A stretch of DNA of 64,000 nt from Peribacillus frigoritolerans (lineage in GTDB: Bacteria > Bacillota > Bacilli > Bacillales > DSM-1321): NCBI RefSeq assembly GCF_001636405.1, contig NZ_KV440950.1, positions 736,001 to 800,000 of the forward strand, in the 5' to 3' direction. A model generated the notes under the pieces. It worked only from the letters and a program-made list of their open reading frames with translations, had not been told where the DNA came from and did no database searches. The position numbers and the translations under genes are program-made. Of the stretch, positions 20,196 through 56,824 are shown piece by piece (positions within the stretch are counted from its first letter, which is position 1; each line of letters starts with the position of its first letter).

Positions 20196-23100
20196 ATGTC
20201 GTACAAGATGCATGTTAAGAAGATGCTCGCCCCGATTCTTGCTGTGAGTTTGATTACAGCGCCATTTACCGTACCGGGGGAGGCATCCGCCAAAGAGTCT
20301 AATAAGAAACCGGCCACGACTGAACCATTTATCATTTCAGCTCCTACTGTTCATTACTCAAAAGGCACCAAAGCGACTGTAACGGTCACACCGAAAAAGG
20401 GGAACAAAGGAAATGAAACCGTTGTCTTTCAATTAATGAATGGGACGAAGGTCATTTCACAATCAGCCGTTGAGGCGGATATTAAGTCGGCCCAAAAGTT
20501 CTCGGCGTACTTCAACTCATACAAATCGGGTTATTGGGTTAACGTATCGGTTGTCTCCAATTATAACGACCATACGAGTGACTTCGGCAAAAGCCTGGCA
20601 GCCTCCGTTTCGGATGCACCATTTGAACTAAGGGTCATGGAAACGACTGATATACACACCAATCTGGTGAGCTATGATTATTATAAGGATGCCGTATTGG
20701 ACTCCGTCGGCTTTTCCCGCACGGCATCTTTAATCAAACAGGCACGAAAAGAAGTGAAAAATAGCGTTTTAGTGGATAACGGCGACCTTATTCAAGGGAC
20801 CCCCCTAGGTACGTACAAAGCGAAAATAGCACCTCTTAAAAAGGGTGAAGTCCATCCCGTTTATAAAGCGATGAACTTGCTTGACTATGATGTGGCCACA
20901 TTTGGCAATCATGAATTCAATTATGGTTTATCTTATTTGGACGAGGCCATCAACGATGCGAACTTCCCTTACGTCAATGCCAATGTTTATAAAAAGGATA
21001 AAGACAATAATCCAAAGAATGATAAAAATAAATATGCTCCTTATAAAATCGTCACGAAGAAAGTGAAGGACATCAATGGAAAAGAAAAATCAGTAAAAAT
21101 AGGATACATTGGATTTGCCCCTCCGCAAATCATGGATTGGGATAAAGCGAATCTAGACGGTAAGGTCATGACAAAGGAAATCGTCACGACTGCAAAAAAA
21201 TATGTACCTGAAATGAAGAAAAAAGGCGCGGATGTCATCGTGGCCCTCACGCATTCCGGGTTTAATGGCGATACCAAGAATACCGAGGATGTCATCTATT
21301 CATTAAGCAAGGTATCCGGTATCAATGCCATCACGTTCTCCCACACGCATAAAGTCTTCCCGGCACAAGATGAGGCTTCTTTAGACAGCCTATTCAAAGA
21401 TAGCCAAGGAAAAGTCCTTGAAGGCGTGGATAATAAAAAGGGTACCATCAATGGTGTACCAGCCGTTCAAGCAGGATATGGCGGCAGTAATCTCGGGATC
21501 ATCGATCTTGATATCCAAAATATCAAGGGGAAATGGAAAGTCGTGAATTCCGAGTCATCAACACGGGCAATCAACGACAAAATAACAGGAAAAAAAGCGG
21601 CTGAAGATGCAGCTGTCGTCAAAGCCGTGAAGAAGGAACACGAAGGAACGATAAAGTATGTTAACACGCCAATCGGAACGACTACAGCTCCAATTCATAG
21701 TTATTTCGCCCTTGTGCAAGACGATCCTTCCGTACAGGTCGTGACGAGCGCACAGAAATGGTATGTAGAAAAATACATTCAAAGCAACCGCCCTGAATAC
21801 AAAGACCTGCCCATCCTCTCTGTAGGAGCACCATTCAAAGCGGGGCGCAATGGCGTCGAGGAATTCACGGAAATCAAGGAAGGCGGACTGACCATCCGCA
21901 GCGCCGGTGATTTATATTTATACGATAATACCTTGAAGGCAATCAAGATCAAAGGGTCCGTGGTTAAAGAGTGGCTTGAGATGTCTGCCGGGAAATATAA
22001 TACGATCGATCCTGCCAAGTCTGAGGAACAGGAGCTGCTTAATGGAAAGTTTGCCGTCTATAATTTTGATGTGATTGACGGTGTCACTTACCAAATCGAT
22101 GTCACCAAGGCTCCGCGCTATGATGAAAAAGGGATAAAAGTGTCGGATTCAAGCAGGATTGCAGATTTGAAATATAATGGTGAACCAGTGGACCCGAATC
22201 AAGATTTCATCGTCGTGACGAATAATTACCGTGCTTCGGGCGGGGGGAACTTCCCAGGAGTCAAGGGCAGCGAATATGTGGTTGACTCTACGGATGAAAA
22301 TCGCCAGATCTTGATGGATTACATCACACAAGAGGGTAAGATCAATCCAACCGCTGATAATAACTGGTCGATAGCACCGATTTCAGGCAAGGTGAACGTT
22401 ACTTTCACCTCATCGCCTAAAGGTGCGGAATATTTAAAGGAAGACAGCCCGATTTCCTATACAGGCAAAAAGGATGATAAAGGCTTTGGCATTTACAAAT
22501 ACAATTTGGGAAAAGAAAACGTTAAGGTGCAACTGCTCGGGATCAATGATCTTCACGGCCAGCTTGATACCACCTCCGATTTCGGCGGCATCAAACAAGG
22601 GCGTGCAGATTATTTAGCCGCGCACTTGAAGCAGCGTAAAGCTGAAAACCCTGAAAATACTCTTTTACTTTCGGCAGGGGATGCCGTTGGGGCAAGTGCA
22701 CCCGTTTCTTCTTTGATCCAGGATAAACCGACGCTTCAGTTTTTGAATAATATGAAATTCGATGTCGGAACTGTCGGGAACCATGAGTTCGACAAAGGGG
22801 TAGAAACCTTGATGGCTCAGATCAATGGCGGAAAGTCGCCAACATCCGAAGTGGTATTCGATAAATTGAACTTTCCATATGTAGTGGCCAATGTCGTATA
22901 TAAAGACACGAAAAAACCGATTTTGGACCCTTACGTCATAAAAAAGGCCGGCGGGGTTGATATTGGGTTCATAGGTGTAGTCACGAATGCAACACCTCAA
23001 AAAGTAAGTCCGGATGGCATTAAGAATGTGGAATTCATAGAACAGGCACCTGCCGTAAATAAGGCGGTTAGTGAGTTGAAAGGTAAAGGCGTCAAAGCGA

Positions 23101-24014
23101 TCGTGATCATTTCACATGACCCGGGCACGGAAAAGGAAGGGGTCATCACAGGCGAAGTGGCTAATCTTGCTAATGCCGTGGATGATGAAGTGGATGTGAT
23201 CTTAGCCGGAGATAATCATGCAAAGGTCAATAACTATGTCGATAATAAATTGATCGTACAAGCTTACTCTTATGGAACGGCTTTTGAAGATGTGGATTTG
23301 GAAATCGATCCAAGCACAAAGGATATTGTCAAAAAGTCAGCTGAGATTGTTACGGTTACACAAGATGGCATCACACCGGATGCCGGGACGACGAAATTCA
23401 TCAGCGACTACCTGGACATGTTCCCCGAGCTGAAAGCTCCGCTTGGGACAACGGACGAGAAAATTTTAAGAACCAATGCCTATACGCAGGAAACGGGCCT
23501 TGGAAATTTAATTGCCGATTCAATGAAGGCCGATTTGAACTCCGATTTTGCCTTCATGAATCCAGGCGGAATCCGTGCAGATATTCCAAAGGGAGAAGTC
23601 ACTTTTTCCGATTTAGCGAAAATCCAGCCGTTCGGAAACGTATTGGTTAAGCTGGAATTGACTGGAGCGGAAGTGAAAACGCTGCTTCAACAGCAATGGA
23701 TCGTGGAAGGATCTCCGAAAACTTTGCAAATTTCTGGACTGAACTATACAGCCGACTTCAGTAAACCTGTCACGGAGCGTGTCACCTTATTGAAGAAAGC
23801 GGACGGAACACCGATCAAGGATACCGAAACATACACGGTGGCCGTCAATGATTTCATGGCAAGCGGCGGTGATAACTATACCGTCCTGAAAGGAAAAGAG
23901 CGTGTGTTTGGACATGCAGACCTGGAAGCATTCGTTAACTATGTGAAAGAGACCTTTAAAGGCGGAAAGATCACCGCAGGAATTGAAGGCAGAATTACGA
24001 ATATCAATAATTAG
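20196..24014 (+). CDS. yfkN: Secreted bifunctional 2',3'-cyclic phosphodiesterase / 5'-nucleotidase, YfkN-like
   Basis: 1272-aa exported enzyme that releases phosphate from nucleotides. Layout: signal peptide ending near GEASA (about residue 32), a beta-rich segment (about 40-140), then metallophosphatase 1 from METTDIHTNL (about 145) with DNGDLIQG and FGNHEFNYG and its 5'-nucleotidase C domain. A second full module starts at about 776 (INDLHGQLD, SAGDAVGAS, VGNHEFDKG) and ends in a second C domain with ASGGDNYTV. This two-module design is that of B. subtilis YfkN (about 1460 aa). Unlike YfkN it ends GRITNINN with no LPxT-type sorting signal, so it is probably released. Strong start: GAAGGGTTGTG then ATG. 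Confidence 0.92.
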   Translation: MSYKMHVKKMLAPILAVSLITAPFTVPGEASAKESNKKPATTEPFIISAPTVHYSKGTKATVTVTPKKGNKGNETVVFQLMNGTKVISQSAVEADIKSAQKFSAYFNSYKSGYWVNVSVVSNYNDHTSDFGKSLAASVSDAPFELRVMETTDIHTNLVSYDYYKDAVLDSVGFSRTASLIKQARKEVKNSVLVDNGDLIQGTPLGTYKAKIAPLKKGEVHPVYKAMNLLDYDVATFGNHEFNYGLSYLDEAINDANFPYVNANVYKKDKDNNPKNDKNKYAPYKIVTKKVKDINGKEKSVKIGYIGFAPPQIMDWDKANLDGKVMTKEIVTTAKKYVPEMKKKGADVIVALTHSGFNGDTKNTEDVIYSLSKVSGINAITFSHTHKVFPAQDEASLDSLFKDSQGKVLEGVDNKKGTINGVPAVQAGYGGSNLGIIDLDIQNIKGKWKVVNSESSTRAINDKITGKKAAEDAAVVKAVKKEHEGTIKYVNTPIGTTTAPIHSYFALVQDDPSVQVVTSAQKWYVEKYIQSNRPEYKDLPILSVGAPFKAGRNGVEEFTEIKEGGLTIRSAGDLYLYDNTLKAIKIKGSVVKEWLEMSAGKYNTIDPAKSEEQELLNGKFAVYNFDVIDGVTYQIDVTKAPRYDEKGIKVSDSSRIADLKYNGEPVDPNQDFIVVTNNYRASGGGNFPGVKGSEYVVDSTDENRQILMDYITQEGKINPTADNNWSIAPISGKVNVTFTSSPKGAEYLKEDSPISYTGKKDDKGFGIYKYNLGKENVKVQLLGINDLHGQLDTTSDFGGIKQGRADYLAAHLKQRKAENPENTLLLSAGDAVGASAPVSSLIQDKPTLQFLNNMKFDVGTVGNHEFDKGVETLMAQINGGKSPTSEVVFDKLNFPYVVANVVYKDTKKPILDPYVIKKAGGVDIGFIGVVTNATPQKVSPDGIKNVEFIEQAPAVNKAVSELKGKGVKAIVIISHDPGTEKEGVITGEVANLANAVDDEVDVILAGDNHAKVNNYVDNKLIVQAYSYGTAFEDVDLEIDPSTKDIVKKSAEIVTVTQDGITPDAGTTKFISDYLDMFPELKAPLGTTDEKILRTNAYTQETGLGNLIADSMKADLNSDFAFMNPGGIRADIPKGEVTFSDLAKIQPFGNVLVKLELTGAEVKTLLQQQWIVEGSPKTLQISGLNYTADFSKPVTERVTLLKKADGTPIKDTETYTVAVNDFMASGGDNYTVLKGKERVFGHADLEAFVNYVKETFKGGKITAGIEGRITNINN

Positions 24015-24020
24015 TTGAGG

Positions 24021-24125
24021 TTTACTCGTGAAAATAGCACATTTACTCGTGAGTTTAGCGGGTTTACTCGTGAAAATTGAGCAATTACTCGTGAGTTTTC
24101 AACTTTTACTTGTGAAACTCTAAAG
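24021..24125. repeat. 21-bp tandem repeat, five units
   Basis: Five units start at 24021, 24042, 24063, 24084 and 24105 with core TTTACTCGTGA. Alternate units differ after the core (GAAAA versus GAGTTT), giving an A-B-A-B-A order. The array follows the yfkN stop codon and runs into its terminator. A TGA inside unit three argues against coding. Confidence 0.88.
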
Positions 24126-27926: not shown

Positions 27927-27960
27927 AAAAACCGTCAGCATGCTACTGACGGTTTTTTTT
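27927..27960 (-). terminator. Terminator overlapping the end of yvlD
   Basis: AAAAACCGTCAG / CTGACGGTTTTT around GCATGCTA. The TAG stop codon of yvlD (27945-27943) lies inside the hairpin. Confidence 0.88.
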
Positions 27961-28290
27961 ACTCTGTTTTATAAGAAGACTTTGAATGAAACTCAATAAC
28001 AATGATCCGATTAAAGCCCCCCAAAAAGAATCGATTACAAAGCCACTGACAACATAGGAAGTGATTTGGAATGTGAAGGCATTGATAATGAAAGAAAACA
28101 ACCCGAACGTCAGGATGGTGATCGGCAATGTGATAAGTTGGAGGATGGGTCTAACCAGCAAGTTCATGATCGATAATATAAAAACCGCCAGCAAGGCAGT
28201 TCCGTAAGATTTGATCGTGATGGAGTCGAGAAGCCAGTCAATAACGAGCAATACCAGCCCGTTGATAAGAAAACGCATGATTATGTTCAT
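27943..28290 (-). CDS. yvlD: YvlD-like membrane protein (phage holin 4 superfamily)
   Basis: 115 aa, four hydrophobic helices: MRFLINGLVLLVIDWLL, TALLAVFILSIMNLLVRPILQLITLPITILTFGLFSFIINAF, and a last helix LIGSLLLSFIQSLLI. The NLLVRP..ITLP..ILTFG pattern is the family mark. In B. subtilis yvlD belongs to the LiaR-linked yvlABCD group; no partner genes occur here. ATG at 28290 follows AGGAGGAG. Confidence 0.85.
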   Translation of the reverse strand: MNIIMRFLINGLVLLVIDWLLDSITIKSYGTALLAVFILSIMNLLVRPILQLITLPITILTFGLFSFIINAFTFQITSYVVSGFVIDSFWGALIGSLLLSFIQSLLIKQSKKNRQ

Positions 28291-28436
28291 GAAAAACTCC
28301 TCCTGAAGTCACTTTCTACAAGTCATTATACTAAAATTTAATGAATTCAGTTATATGTTTGCAGAATTGTCACAAAAAAAAGAGGATACGGTATGCATTC
28401 CCAGAATGGAATAGACGCTTTTTATTTAAAATGTCC

Positions 28437-28557
28437 GTCGATTTCAGAAATCCGCTCCCTTTCCGCCGACTGTCTGCCAAGCCTCCTCGACGCAAGCGCC
28501 TGTGGGGTCTCGGCTAGCCAGTAATTCGGCAGGAGTGTCGTAAATTTCTTCAATCCA
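28437..28557 (-). repeat. Structured intergenic element, subfamily 2, copy A
   Basis: First of three tandem copies 217 bp apart. Read on the minus strand it has stems GCCGA/TCGGC, CTG/CAG and GCCGAG/CTTGGC and an apical hairpin GGCGC-TT-GCGTC (one G-U), with conserved unpaired GAGACCCC and GAGGAGG. Confidence 0.9.
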
Positions 28558-28653
28558 ATATAGGTTTTATCAATATAAAAGTAAACCATGACGGTAAGCA
28601 AGTCCTGTTTTAAAAAGACGGTTCGACTACAGCCTTTTCATTTAAAAGGTCCA

Positions 28654-28774
28654 GTCGATTTCAGAAATCCGCTCCCTTTCCGCCGACTGTCTGCCAAGCC
28701 TCCTCGACGCAAGCGTCTGTGGGGTCTCGGCTAGCCAGTAATTCGGCAGGAGTGTCGCAAATTTCTTCAATCCA
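28654..28774 (-). repeat. Structured intergenic element, subfamily 2, copy B
   Basis: As copy A, but the apical hairpin is GACGC-TT-GCGTC: the G-U pair of copy A has become A-U, keeping the pairing. The 90-bp spacer to the next copy is also repeated. Confidence 0.9.
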
Positions 28775-28870
28775 ATATAGTGTTTCATCAATATAAAAGT
28801 AAACCATGAAGGTAAGCAAGCCTTGTTTTAAAAACACGGTTTGGCTACAGTCTTTTCATTAAAAGGTCCA

Positions 28871-28990
28871 GTCGATTTCAGAAATCCACTCCTTTTCCGC
28901 CGACTGTCTGCCAAGCCTCCTCGGCGCAAGCGCCTGTGGGGTCTCGGCTAGCCAGTAATTCGGCAGGAGTGTCGCAATTTTCTTCCATCC
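28871..28990 (-). repeat. Structured intergenic element, subfamily 2, copy C
   Basis: Third tandem copy. Its apical hairpin is GGCGC-TT-GCGCC, a full G-C version of the same stem. Small changes occur near the outer end (CCACTCC for CCGCTCC). Confidence 0.9.
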
Positions 28991-29090
28991 AATGAGGATT
29001 ACAGGTGAAAAAAACTTAAAGGATAAACTAGTTTTAAACTTGGTTCCGAATAGATATCTGCCTGCAGTTTTTATTTTAAAAAACATTTCG

Positions 29091-29213
29091 GTTGATTGGA
29101 ACGGAAGGTACGAGACTCCTGCGGGAAAAGCGTGGCCAAGGGAGACCCCGCAGGCGACGCCGAGGAGGCTCCCGCCCGCCCGCGGAAAGCGAGTGCCTGT
29201 AGTGGAAATCAAC
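29091..29213 (+). repeat. Structured intergenic element, subfamily 1, copy D
   Basis: Outer stem GTTGATT/AATCAAC, then GCGG/CCGC, GCG/CGC and GGGAG/CTCCC, with apical GGCG-A-CGCC. It shares GAGACCCC and GAGGAGGCT with subfamily 2 but its stem sequences differ. It faces the copy A-C array. Confidence 0.9.
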
Positions 29214-29257
29214 GAACGTTCCCATTTGTCTACAAAATGGGATTCATTAGGTTCTCT

Positions 29258-30148
29258 TTAGTTGTTGGCAATGATCTTTTCGAATTCACTTAATTCCAAA
29301 GTGTTTTTTAATTTGGGATTGGTGTTTAAGGAAAGCAGGGCACTTTCAATAAGAAAGGTTCGCGGTTCAACGTTTTGTAATAATTCCTCTTGGATAAAGT
29401 GAATCAATTTTAAGTTTTTAACCCGTTCCGCTTCATCATCTTGGCAAAGCCTCAAGATCATCTTTTTTAGGTCATTTGCAGAGTGCAGGAGTGCTGTATG
29501 AAAATCCTGCTGGTTATGGAAGCACTCAGGAAGCCATTGCTTGATGAGATCGGGTTCCAATAGCTGTGCATTTGACTTGCTGACATCTTCGAAAATCGAT
29601 TTAATCCTATCGACACAATAACGGATAATTTCAGTAGGGTTGAACTCGGGCTCTTTAGCCAAGGCATTAAAATGAATCGTTTGATGCATCATTCCCGAGT
29701 AAAGAATGGCACAGTCCAAAATATAAGGTTTTTTATCAGCACCGAAAATATCCAGAAACCGTTTTGATAACCAATGGATATGCTGGAATTTAGCGTGTGT
29801 TATGAAGTTCTTAAGTTCTTTATCATTTGAAATCATTACTTCTTCATATAAGAAAAAGATTTTGTTGTTTTTGTTTGAGTGCATTTGTAATTCTGATTGT
29901 TTGATGAATATTTCAATATCTGCAAGGTTTTGCCCAATCAGCAATTCATTCCGCTCTTTTTCGAATTTTTCTTGCGAAGTTAGGAAGACTGCCTTAAGCA
30001 ATTCGCTTTTAGAAGAAAAATAGTTGTAAAATGTTCCTTTTGAAATGCCGCTATAATCTAAAATATCCTGAATGGAAGTTGCTTGGTAACCCTTTTCAAT
30101 AAATAATTGGTGCGCATATTTAACTACCATTTGTTTGCGCTCATTCAT
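29258..30148 (-). CDS. TetR/AcrR family transcriptional regulator
   Basis: 296 aa, longer than the usual 190-220. The N-terminal helix-turn-helix is textbook: VVKYAHQLFIEKGYQATSIQDILDYSGISKGTFYNYFSSKSELL. The ligand domain (about 60-185) is followed by an extra 100-residue helical tail, which is unusual. The ATG at 30148 has AAGGGTG at six nt; a GTG at 30157 overlaps that site. No transporter or enzyme sits next to it, so the target is unknown. Confidence 0.88.
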   Translation of the reverse strand: MNERKQMVVKYAHQLFIEKGYQATSIQDILDYSGISKGTFYNYFSSKSELLKAVFLTSQEKFEKERNELLIGQNLADIEIFIKQSELQMHSNKNNKIFFLYEEVMISNDKELKNFITHAKFQHIHWLSKRFLDIFGADKKPYILDCAILYSGMMHQTIHFNALAKEPEFNPTEIIRYCVDRIKSIFEDVSKSNAQLLEPDLIKQWLPECFHNQQDFHTALLHSANDLKKMILRLCQDDEAERVKNLKLIHFIQEELLQNVEPRTFLIESALLSLNTNPKLKNTLELSEFEKIIANN

Positions 30149-30157
30149 ATATATCAC

Positions 30158-37408: not shown

Positions 37409-37529
37409 TGAAAAACGCGCTCTTGAATGGAGCTTCAGTTTTTCGACAAAAAAACGGATTTCTGAAAAAAATGTAACGTTTCTCAAAGAAAAAACTGTAG
37501 GTAACGAATTTGTCTGCAGTCTGACTCTG

Positions 37530-54073: not shown

Positions 54074-54121
54074 TTTGGCTCTTTTCGAAAAGATTGTTGT
54101 TTTTAAAACGAAACTATTTAA

Positions 54122-54249
54122 GGTTGATTGGAGCGGAAGTGCGAGACTCCTGCGGGATTAGCGGGACAGGTGAGACCCCACAGGCGTTTACGCCGAGGAG
54201 GCTCACCGCCCGCCCCGCGGAAAGCGAGCATCTGGAGGGGAAATCAACC
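54122..54249 (+). repeat. Structured intergenic element, subfamily 1, copy E
   Basis: Outer stem GGTTGATT/AATCAACC. The inner stem is GTGAG/CTCAC where copies D and G have GGGAG/CTCCC, a compensatory change. Apical hairpin GGCG-TTTA-CGCC. Confidence 0.9.
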
Positions 54250-54301
54250 ACACCGCACTACTTGTTAATAGCAACAAAGTATGCGAAAACAGCCTTATTT
54301 T

Positions 54302-54655
54302 TCATTCGGATAAAAGGGTTTTAGGAAATTTAATGGCCGTGGGCAAGCTGGATTTATCTCGATAAGACCTGTAAGACACAATCGTATGATTATGCGCTTG
54401 AACGTCCAACTGGAGAACCTGTGAGCTTTTCATTTCCAAATAGTACGTAACGTCTTCTATTTGTAAATGATAAAAGGAAAAAGGTATCCCTAAAAGGTCT
54501 TTCCTGATTAGTTTTGTTTCGGGCTGATTGATGATGTGCTCACTCAATTCCGCTATCGTAACAGAAGTTGTTCCTGTAATGGCTGTTATTTTTTCTTTTG
54601 CATAATCGACTGCATGACTGAAAGTGCCGGCAATGTTCTTCAAGATTCCGTTCAT
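54302..54655 (-). CDS. Hypothetical protein (117 aa)
   Basis: An N-terminal amphipathic helix (MNGILKNIAGTFSHAVDYAKEK) is followed by a compact beta-rich part with LLGIPFSFYHLQIEDVTYYLEMKSSQVLQLDVQAHN. AAAGGAGATG precedes the ATG. No signal peptide. I do not recognise the family. Confidence 0.65.
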   Translation of the reverse strand: MNGILKNIAGTFSHAVDYAKEKITAITGTTSVTIAELSEHIINQPETKLIRKDLLGIPFSFYHLQIEDVTYYLEMKSSQVLQLDVQAHNHTIVSYRSYRDKSSLPTAIKFPKTLLSE

Positions 54656-54820
54656 GGGTGCATCTCCTTTGAATTAGGCTATGTATGTAGTATTAGACGC
54701 GGCTAATGGTTTATGCAAAAAAACCGGCAATGATGATATAGAATCGTCACTTTATGAACATGATTAAGAAGTGTGCAACAAATATAAAAGGGCAATCAAG
54801 AAAGGACAGAAGGTCAAAGC

Positions 54821-56056
54821 ATGAGGAATAAAAAAATATTTATGGGCCTGCTTTTCATCGCAATCCTCGCTTTTTCAGCCGTGTTCATTCAGTTGAATAT
54901 GGATGTCAATTCCAGAGCGGAAAAAGGGGAGGACGACGATGCGGATAATCATGAGAGAATAGAGAAATTGCTGAATAAAATGACGCTTGAAGAAAAAATC
55001 GGACAGCTTATGATGGTCGGTTTCAAGGGGACTGAAAAGAGCGATGAAATTACGGAGCTCATCGAACAAAAACATATAGGAGGCGTCATCTATTTTGACC
55101 GCAATATGAAATCACCTAAACAAGTGGCCCGGTTATCCAACTCGCTTCAGCAAACGGCCAATCAAAGTGCACATTCGCTTCCGTTGATGGTGGCCATCGA
55201 TCAGGAAGGGGGGGACATCATCAGGATGAAGGAAAGGGTATCGCCCCTCCCTGCGCAACAGGATCTTGGGAAAAATGCCTCTATTGAAGAGATGTACAAG
55301 GTGGCCAGATTGAATGGGACAGAACTGGGATCCATGGGGATTAACATTAATTTTGCCCCTGTACTTGATTTATCAAAAACGGATAAACGTTCATTGGGGC
55401 AAGATCCGGGAAAGGTCTATCAATTCGGAAAGAAAGCCATTCAAGGCTTGAATGAGGTATCGATAACGGGTGCATTGAAGCACTTTCCCGGCAACGGACG
55501 CAGCGAAATCGATCCGCATGTCGAAACTTCATCCGTGGAGGCCAACCAACTGGATCTGGAAAATTCGGATATCTATCCCTTCAAGCAAATCATAAGTGAA
55601 ATGGATAACCAAAAGTTTTTCGTGATGGTGACCCACATTAAATATCCAGCCTATGATAAAGAAAAACCAGCAAGCCTTTCTAAAATCATCATAGAAGACC
55701 TGCTTCGGGGGAAACTCAAATATGAAGGACTTGTTGTTACCGACGATTTGGAAATGGGAGCCGTGAACAAGTACTTCTCCTATGATGAGATGGGGAAGCA
55801 GGCAATCCTTGCTGGAGCGGACTTATTACTTGTCTGTCATGAATATTCCCATGAGCTTGAGGTATATAACGGATTACTGCGAGCAGTAAAAGCAGGGGAA
55901 GTTCCAATGGATAGAATTAACGAGTCAGTGAAAAGAGTGTTGACATATAAACTTAACAACATGAAGCAAACGAAAGCTGACCCTGATCAAGCGGAAAAAG
56001 TCGTGAAAAATCCGGAAAGCATAAAATTCATCGAAAGCCTGAGCGAGGATGAATAA
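54821..56056 (+). CDS. Glycoside hydrolase family 3, NagZ-like
   Basis: 411 aa with an N-terminal membrane helix (about 6-25), so exported or anchored. The GH3 barrel holds KIGQLMMVGF, AIDQEGGDIIRM, and KHFPGNGRSEIDPHVE, the NagZ catalytic loop with the Asp/His pair. The nucleophile Asp is in VVTDDLEMGAV. It probably removes N-acetylglucosamine from muropeptides, feeding wall recycling. It lacks the extra C-terminal domain of B. subtilis NagZ (642 aa). Confidence 0.92.
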   Translation: MRNKKIFMGLLFIAILAFSAVFIQLNMDVNSRAEKGEDDDADNHERIEKLLNKMTLEEKIGQLMMVGFKGTEKSDEITELIEQKHIGGVIYFDRNMKSPKQVARLSNSLQQTANQSAHSLPLMVAIDQEGGDIIRMKERVSPLPAQQDLGKNASIEEMYKVARLNGTELGSMGININFAPVLDLSKTDKRSLGQDPGKVYQFGKKAIQGLNEVSITGALKHFPGNGRSEIDPHVETSSVEANQLDLENSDIYPFKQIISEMDNQKFFVMVTHIKYPAYDKEKPASLSKIIIEDLLRGKLKYEGLVVTDDLEMGAVNKYFSYDEMGKQAILAGADLLLVCHEYSHELEVYNGLLRAVKAGEVPMDRINESVKRVLTYKLNNMKQTKADPDQAEKVVKNPESIKFIESLSEDE

Positions 56057-56087
56057 AGCGAAACCGCTCTCTCAAAAAGGTGCTTTT

Positions 56088-56112
56088 GTTTAAATCAGCT
56101 GATAGAGGGAAT
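56088..56112 (+). promoter_or_regulatory. Candidate sigma-B promoter
   Basis: GTTTAA, 13-nt spacer, GGGAAT; one base from the sigma-B -10 GGGTAT. It lies 35 nt before the start of the 62-aa protein. Confidence 0.4.
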
Positions 56113-56146
56113 ACTATATAGGACTAACTTGAAGGAGGAAACTAAC

Positions 56147-56335
56147 ATGCCATCAAACAAAATGCTTGGAACCGTCCTGATAGGAGCAGCCGCATTTTTA
56201 ATGCGCAATAAGAAAACCCGTGAAAAAACCATGAGTCAAATAAGATCTCTAGCCACACCAGAAACCATTGATAAGGTGAAGAGCCAATTCCAATCAATAA
56301 CCAAAACAAAATCAAGTAACCCATCCGTACGTTAA
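56147..56335 (+). CDS. Small protein with hydrophobic N-terminus (62 aa)
   Basis: MLGTVLIGAAAFLMRN forms a short hydrophobic helix followed by a basic, polar helix (TMSQIRSLATPETIDKVKSQF). AAGGAGGAAA precedes the ATG at 56147. The layout resembles small YtxH-like stress proteins, but no family can be assigned. A sigma-B-like promoter upstream would fit a stress role. Confidence 0.65.
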   Translation: MPSNKMLGTVLIGAAAFLMRNKKTREKTMSQIRSLATPETIDKVKSQFQSITKTKSSNPSVR

Positions 56336-56343
56336 GGTGAAAT

Positions 56344-56382
56344 GATCCCATTAGTAATTCTTAATGGGGTCAAAGTTTTTTT
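56344..56382 (+). terminator. Terminator of the 62-aa gene
   Basis: GATCCCATTA(G) / (C)TTAATGGGGTC, 5-nt loop, then seven T after a 4-nt gap. It is nearly the same as the hairpin at 56790. Confidence 0.8.
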
Positions 56383-56401
56383 AAGTTCCCGCTGATTAAA
56401 G

Positions 56402-56501
56402 AAATCCGCTTCCTTTCCGCCGACTGTCTGCCAAGCCTCCTCGACACAAGCGTCTGTGGGGTCTCGTCTAGCCAGTTATTCGGCAGGAGTGTCGCGGATT
56501 T
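56402..56501 (-). repeat. Structured intergenic element, subfamily 2, copy F
   Basis: Outer stem AAATCCGC/GCGGATTT is perfect. Minus-strand inner stems as in copies A-C, with apical GACGC-TT-GTGTC (one G-U). Confidence 0.88.
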
Positions 56502-56537
56502 GTAAATGAGGGTTTCACCTTACTTTAAATGAAAAGT

Positions 56538-56662
56538 TGAATGGAACGGAAGGTACGAGACTCCTGCGGGAAAAGCGAGTCCAGGGGAGACCCCACAGGC
56601 GCAAAGGCGCCGAGGAGGCTCCCGGACCGCCTGCGGAAAGCGAGTGCCTGGAGTGGAAATCA
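56538..56662 (+). repeat. Structured intergenic element, subfamily 1, copy G
   Basis: GGGAG/CTCCC, GTCC/GGAC and apical GGCGC-AAAG-GCGCC. It shares the CTCCTGCGGG and GCGGAAAGCGAG flanks with D and E. Confidence 0.88.
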
Positions 56663-56677
56663 TATTACTAACCCTCA

Positions 56678-56775
56678 AATCTGCTGCTTCCGCCCGATTG
56701 TCTGCCAAGCCTAATCAAAGCAAGCGGTTTCGGCTAACCAGTCATTCGGCAAGAGTGTGGCAAATTTATTCAATC
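56678..56775 (-). repeat. Structured intergenic element, subfamily 2, decayed copy H
   Basis: TCTGCCAAGCCT, CGGCTAACCAG and ATTCGGCAAGAGTGT are recognisable, but the centre (TAATCAAAGCAAGCGG) has lost the GAGGAGG and GAGACCCC motifs. Confidence 0.7.
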
Positions 56776-56789
56776 GTCTTCAAAAAACT

Positions 56790-56824
56790 ACCCCATTAAG
56801 TTAATCTTAATGGGGCTTTTTTTA
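56790..56824 (+). terminator. Second terminator at the end of the repeat cluster
   Basis: CCCCATTAAG / CTTAATGGGG, 5-nt loop, seven T. It looks like the better-preserved twin of the hairpin at 56344. Confidence 0.88.

Follow-up and report, generated by a model that had tools for sequence, protein, structure and literature searches.

A folded intergenic repeat widespread in Bacillus-like bacteria is carried by small mobile elements, some of them with IS1595-type ends

Between the genes of Peribacillus frigoritolerans lies a structured element whose copies differ in sequence in such a way that their pairing is kept, and the locus raises the question of what the fold is kept for, whether as RNA or as single-stranded DNA for a transposase. 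The original prediction for the window, by which we mean the whole stretch of 64,000 nucleotides analysed here, described eight copies (A-H) sharing the motifs GAGACCCC and GAGGAGG and differing in their stems in matched pairs. As to the letters, this description is accurate: both motifs are invariant across the alignment of A-G, the inner stem is GGGAG/CTCCC in D and G, GTGAG/CTCAC in E and GCCGAG/CTTGGC in A-C, the next stem is GCGG/CCGC versus GCCGA/TCGGC, and the apical stem is GGCGC/GCGTC in A (with one G.T pair), GACGC/GCGTC in B and GGCGC/GCGCC in C. A covariance model, R1, built from A-G with H left out of the build, retrieves all eight copies in the window with E-values from 4.9e-32 to 3.3e-7, where A-G match by construction.

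As evidence the eight copies are not equal. The A-type cores A, B and C, at 28436-28543 (-), 28653-28760 (-) and 28870-28977 (-), with E-values of 1.2e-30 (supported also by the fold), 4.9e-32 and 1.9e-31, are the last, middle and first units of a single tandem array spaced at 217 nt, and therefore they are not independent witnesses; copy A is situated between the genes 29258-30157(-) and 27943-28290(-) and has the same sense as both. The D-type core D occupies 29090-29214 (+) including the outer stem P1 (R1 match 29108-29214, E 1.4e-20) and is antisense to both neighbouring genes. The interval 28437..29213, to which the element had been assigned, covers A-D, while E-H lie outside it at 54139-56763. 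Copy E is a complete 218-bp MITE at 54077-54294 (+), with its core at 54139-54249 inside and the ends GGCTCTTTTC...GAAAACAGCC, and further on stand the A-type core F at 56390-56497 (-) (E 1.3e-29), the D-type core G at 56553-56665 (+) (E 1.1e-22) and the degenerate core H at 56665-56763 (-), which R1 still matches at E 3.3e-7 and which has lost much of the fold, so that it folds only partly. The window also holds a short tandem repeat of TTTACTCGTGA units at 24019-24102, behind the ORF 20196-24014.

The family extends far beyond the window. In the genome to which it belongs (G000, 5.46 Mb) R1 gives at least 150 matches, all with E-values of 9.0e-10 or better, and 20 further cores were met in 30 loci fetched for another reason, which brings the number to at least 170 copies and excludes chance. 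Three subfamilies are visible among 148 readable copies of this genome, with 80 D-type, 47 A-type and 21 E-type copies by a stricter rule and 74, 47 and 27 by a looser one. Within the order, R1 matches 146 of 199 genomes in 73 of 95 genera (E<=1e-4); within the class, 52 of 249 genomes drawn; and within the phylum, 3 of 299 genomes (E<=1e-5), all three of them inside the class, the window's genome being included in each sample. Among the matches listed by a pattern scan, the hosts include Peribacillus, Neobacillus, Rossellomorea, Mesobacillus, Metabacillus, Cytobacillus, Alkalihalobacillus, Pseudalkalibacillus, Lederbergia, Heyndrickxia, Sutcliffiella and Sporosarcina. Together with the intergenic position of 134 of the 136 copies placed in this genome, these counts bear out the earlier impression that such repeats are common between the genes of Bacillaceae. 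The family has no entry in Rfam: Rfam 15 gave zero matches above gathering score in the window, and a permissive scan of 28300-29300 gave a best match of E 0.83. In the open-access literature, queries with pieces of the core gave no paper on these repeats among the matches listed, a query with the terminal string gave only an unrelated match, and papers on bacterial repeats and terminators named no such family in their titles or the starts of their abstracts, which is no proof of absence.

Two other origins were considered and set aside. A phage or viral origin was rejected, with zero matches in a phage collection and zero in viral contigs by exact pattern. Plasmids were likewise rejected as the source of mobility, the plasmid copies (L321-L324) being a single fixed copy that has gnd on one side and a small gene on the other within a cluster for formaldehyde assimilation. 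The plasmids belong to Bacillus, Paenibacillus, Priestia and Peribacillus, and a Tn3-family transposase gene adjoins this cluster in two of the four regions viewed.

Is the fold itself conserved, or only the sequence? An alignment of 131 copies, to which this genome contributed 25 and other genomes 106, has a consensus of about 125 nt that forms one long rod, beginning with P1 (GTTGATT/AATCAAC) and continuing through P2, P3, P4 and P5 to the apical P6. Between P1 and P2 the rod contains a purine stretch that is symmetric, GGAGCGGAA facing GGAGCGGAA, and has GC/GC at its centre. The loops GACTCCTG, GAGACCCC, CGAGGAGGCT and GCGGAAAGC are nearly invariant; the conserved loops, among them GAGGAGG, are asymmetric, and these mismatched loops are the most conserved parts across genera. 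Covariation was assessed by a home-made test that is similar to R-scape and is not R-scape itself, using a G statistic with APC and substitutions re-dealt along a FastTree tree. Against this tree-based null, 8 of the 52 proposed pairs are significant (two-set E<0.05, 131 copies); when all column pairs are tested only three are, two of them proposed pairs and one not. The central pair of the purine stretch alternates between C-G (74 copies) and T-A (33), with E of 1e-3 or better. Moreover, 97 pair-preserving double changes are counted on the tree, versus 2-11 when the partner column is slid by 1-6 positions. The claim that the paired stem changes mean a kept fold thus stands.

These counts also bear on the idea that the repeat is a plain passenger, whose fold would be an old relic retained only through recent common origin. 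Repeats of this kind, small and intergenic, are commonly regarded as parasites, and an excess between convergent genes, as described below for this family, can mean mere tolerance, as has been argued for BOX and RUP by Croucher et al. (PMC3049150). The double changes, placed on one tree, speak against a relic, as do the copies in other orders, which differ in their stems and keep their loops, and we regard the passenger idea as very improbable. A slightly less remote alternative, though still an improbable one, dispenses with selection on the fold by another route, namely hairpin-templated copying of one arm from the other (quasi-palindrome correction), which would make paired changes in single steps. 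For single-bp paired changes the two ideas look identical, and there is one copy, G000:C1:2461408-2461519(-), whose core has turned into a 19-bp perfect palindrome with the left loop lost, a state that copying of one arm onto the other would produce. Such a palindrome replacing the loops is seen in 1 of 254 copies, the next longest arm being 9; in addition, arm copying would erase the mismatched loops, yet precisely these are most conserved across genera. As for a small protein, long open frames do occur in the GC-rich cores, and an ORF of 117 aa overlaps C and D, but the core lengths spread over the residues modulo 3 (43, 51 and 37 of 131) and every frame is interrupted in some copies, the best being open in 87 of 131; protein coding was rejected on these two grounds and its probability is close to nil.

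The strand on which the fold is kept can be approached from the way in which pairs break. Changes out of Watson-Crick pairs lead to G.T in 91 cases and to A.C in 56 (p 0.005), an excess that is weak against the control, since slid pairs give 277:249 overall (difference p 0.049) and one slide of the six (-1) gives 42:27, the same ratio as the real pairs. The sense strand is the more stable one in 112 of 131 copies with RNA parameters, and DNA parameters likewise favour it, in 119 of 131. The reading we favour is that selection on the fold acts on one of the strands while it is single-stranded, and RNA rather than single-stranded DNA would be the simpler choice for the selected form.

How the copies came to be where they are is clearest for copy E. 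Its 218 bp contain no transposase gene and no conserved frame, and it is inserted behind a terminator, with its right target duplication partly lost in this genome; in a congener, G215, the same site is occupied with a perfect duplication, TTTATTTT. Among 20 loci read for this site, two are occupied (G000 and G215), 11 are empty, six have diverged without the element, and one (L185) is unplaceable; ten of the empty sites have a spacer of 10-12 bases between the flanks and one has a spacer of 1 base. Of 27 E-type copies, 19 have duplications matching at 8/8 positions, four at 7/8 and three at 6/8, while one lacks readable ends; in other genomes 13 of 21 chosen copies have 8/8 duplications. In both counts the ends were picked for the best duplication if several fitted. 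Two end classes surround the same core in other genomes, class I with GGCTCTTTTCTAAAAGATTGTTGC and class II with GGCTGTGTTAAA followed by GTTGATT, and the terminal inverted repeats pair as GGCTCTTTTC...GAAAACAGCC and as GGCTGTGTTAAA...TTTAACACAGCC. Accordingly, E and the class I and II copies show the terminal inverted repeats, target duplications and empty sites in relatives that define MITEs. Across the 109 copies tested from other genomes, only 15 have flanking inverted repeats above the 95% null, a null that is strict since it pairs the flanks of other copies; many copies are therefore decayed or bear other ends. One further end class is possible in another order, where the core in L335-L340 stands inside a frame of GAGGCTGGGACA...TGTCCCAGCCTC and has a terminator-like hairpin of its own behind it; the ends of L245 resemble this frame.

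The two end classes have intact partners. L326 (in genome G088, 1019-2467) is an intact IS1595-family element with class I ends, an AAAAGTTT duplication and a transposase matching NF033547 at E 2.4e-63, and L333 (in G030, 1326-2505) is another, with class II-like ends, an TTATTGTT duplication and E 1.5e-64; both genomes also carry the repeat. The ends and the 8-bp duplications of the class I and II units match these elements, while the units differ in having no transposase gene and in having the folded core, which is absent from both L326 and L333. The IS1595 domain PF12762 is found in 6 of 30 genomes searched, G088 and G030 included, and zero times in the window's own genome. ISL3 had been considered as the partner of E, prompted by the 8-bp duplications and GG ends, and was dropped: PF01610 occurs zero times in this genome and in 2 of 15 genomes, and the ISL3 copies of G072 have other ends. 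The copies thus travel as cargo on mobile elements that are non-autonomous and in part have IS1595-type ends, and movement of the E-type units by IS1595 transposases in trans is what the shared ends suggest. In class II units, the right arm of P1 and the inner portion of the IS end fall on the same letters, so that the core probably arose inside such an IS-type element.

Does the fold then merely serve transposition? In such a case the hairpin of one strand would be used by a transposase or by a replication-coupled step, with no part for RNA, much as the single-stranded DNA role in the original prediction had it. The E-type units are indeed mobile, the sense strand is favoured by DNA parameters too, and one end type abuts hairpin sites. 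IS1595 is a DDE family, whose transposition as a rule needs only the element ends; the intact elements L326 and L333 do without the core; and the core is found with different ends. Its asymmetry further weakens this reading, which we consider unlikely, though less so than the passenger and arm-copying ideas. An IS-derived repeat owing everything to inverted-repeat symmetry, which the original prediction had named as a refutation, is not what is seen either. Some ends are of IS1595 type, but symmetry fails to explain the core: the conserved part has no such symmetry, is enclosed by the terminal repeats, occurs with different ends and is absent from the two intact IS1595 elements. As the fold is common to elements with different ends, it is not the by-product of one transposon, nor is it likely to serve a single transposase.

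The A- and D-type units, which in the window are A-D and F-H, behave differently and form tandem or inverted arrays. At the A-D site the congeners have zero, one or two core units and this genome has three plus D, which indicates that arrays grow and shrink; copy D is absent at its site in the congeners read, save for an internally deleted D-like remnant in L200. The string TTTGTCTACAGTCTGA closes many A- and D-type units, with an intrinsic terminator immediately behind it. The genome contains it 64 times (<=1 mismatch), versus zero for the reversed control, and a core lies within 160 nt of it in 22 of 30 loci fetched from this genome (13 by a simple motif test). In 25 of these 30 loci (L355-L384) a terminator hairpin with a T-run starts at most 6 bases after the string, versus 1-9 of 30 at seven other offsets and 417 of 3000 random positions. 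The hairpin likewise follows in 8 of 9 cases from named genomes, six of the nine being from Peribacillus, and in 17 of 28 loci (L385-L412) of a class sample, where 22 of 151 genomes have the string. Four aligned units from another order stop precisely at TTTGTCTACAGTCTGA, and each is then followed by a different hairpin, with a T-rich tail in three of the four. The units L345-L347 and L354 from another order are longer, and at least L346, L347 and L354 have a second inverted core about 300 bp upstream. More generally, TTTGTCTACAGTCTGA adjoins intrinsic terminators in many Bacilli, with or without a recognisable core.

In the window the picture is partial, as A-D and F-H are without the string, having lost it or never had it. 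Its single occurrence, as TTTGTCTGCAGTCTGA with one mismatch, is at 37509-37524 (+), where there is no core match and where a hairpin with a T-rich tail (AAGCATCC/GGATGCTTTATT) follows after five bases. The F-G-H block is bordered on both sides, by a terminator-like stem-loop at 56347-56383 (+) on the left (CCCATTAGTAATTCTTAATGGGG, with a later T-run) and by a terminator at 56791-56823 (+) on the right (CCCCATTAAGTTAATCTTAATGGGG and a T-run). Among the loci compared at this site, which include the congener loci L172-L183, six congeners have a single terminator and no block, the window's genome and four others have a terminator-like stem-loop on either side of the core block, two loci keep half of the left stem-loop, and seven more distant loci lack the block. 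With one stem-loop in the absence of the block and two around it, the block appears as an insertion at a terminator with duplication of the stem-loop; the stem-loops stand on both sides of these A-/D-type units, and no clean target duplication was worked out for them. A plain scan for terminators within <=220 nt gave no clear excess downstream in the sense direction versus upstream antisense (A-type 18/47 versus 10, D-type 29/74 versus 28, E-type 6/27 versus 10).

The orientation of the copies relative to genes, called with a simple codon-based caller, would fit transcription along with the neighbours. The distinct spacers holding copies in this genome are 62 tandem, 28 convergent and 10 divergent, and the tandem ones hold 48 sense sites against 23 antisense ones (p 0.004), with sense-to-antisense ratios of 17:3 for A-type, 22:15 for D-type and 9:5 for E-type. 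Counted over all sites, 89 of 134 are sense to the neighbouring genes (p 0.0002). In other genomes the spacers with a copy are 70 tandem, 20 convergent and 11 divergent, versus 134, 28 and 54 for copy-free spacers of >=60 nt at the same loci (convergent versus divergent, p 0.005), and there 41 are sense, 22 antisense and 7 mixed (p 0.02). BOX and RUP show a similar convergent excess, which may simply mean that insertions there are tolerated.

The closest kinds among known repeats are BOX, RUP, ERIC and bcr1. The BOX, RUP and SPRITE repeats of pneumococcus are likewise small, interspersed and intergenic, with IS-like ends, strong predicted RNA folds, an excess between convergent genes and an action expected when they are co-transcribed, but their hosts and ends are others and BOX is modular (A-B-C) (Croucher et al. 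2011, PMC3049150); the string "covari" is absent from the main text of that paper. ERIC is an intergenic imperfect palindrome of similar size for which an orientation-dependent effect on transcripts has been reported (in part after PMC3049150), whereas its hosts are enterobacteria, and it is likened here by description. In Bacillaceae, too, there are intergenic stem-loop repeat families, namely bcr1 of the B. cereus group and Bhal-1 of Bacillus halodurans, the latter with 36 copies of 74 bp (Cozzuto et al. 2008, PMC2267715); by the published description alone Bhal-1 may belong to the present family, and bcr1 too is compared by description, not by sequence. REP/RAYT systems also show many intergenic palindromes per genome, but the present repeats are far longer, and this type was rejected, with zero matches to the Y1 transposase domain PF01797 in this genome.

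To sum up, we consider it probable that the copies form a family of mobile elements sharing a cargo fold of about 125 nt, which is selected in single-stranded form and is likely a cis-acting RNA module of 3' UTRs. An action in 3' UTRs is suggested by the copies being oriented with neighbouring transcription in the majority of cases and by one branch standing directly before terminators, and it is the RNA-level role that we favour. In this scheme, the class I and II units, E included, would be MITEs moved in trans by IS1595 transposases, while the terminator-abutting units would be moved by an unassigned enzyme and multiplied by recombination; the element would be transcribed within the 3' UTR, upstream of the terminator, with the rod as a cis RNA module. 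The rod might be a 3'-end barrier or a processing site, which would make insertions tolerable or mildly useful, though this is a guess; that it acts by protecting the transcript, rather than by being cut there or by binding a protein, is a guess that we hold with considerable doubt. Equally tentative is a bolder version, in which the RNA fold of about 125 nt would itself be the selfish unit, travelling as the cargo of several transposons across Bacilli, with one branch delivered to terminators, duplicating the stem-loop and controlling 3' ends; if true, the fold would be the last structured part of many host transcripts.

For an abundant class of repeats outside the coverage of Rfam a covariance model is now at hand. 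Insertion against terminators would be an unusual targeting rule, and its simple logic would be to enter a transcript without shortening it. If the fold is selected in RNA, a folded RNA would be the conserved cargo of otherwise different transposons, and a mobile 3' UTR module may be common to many genes within a single genome.
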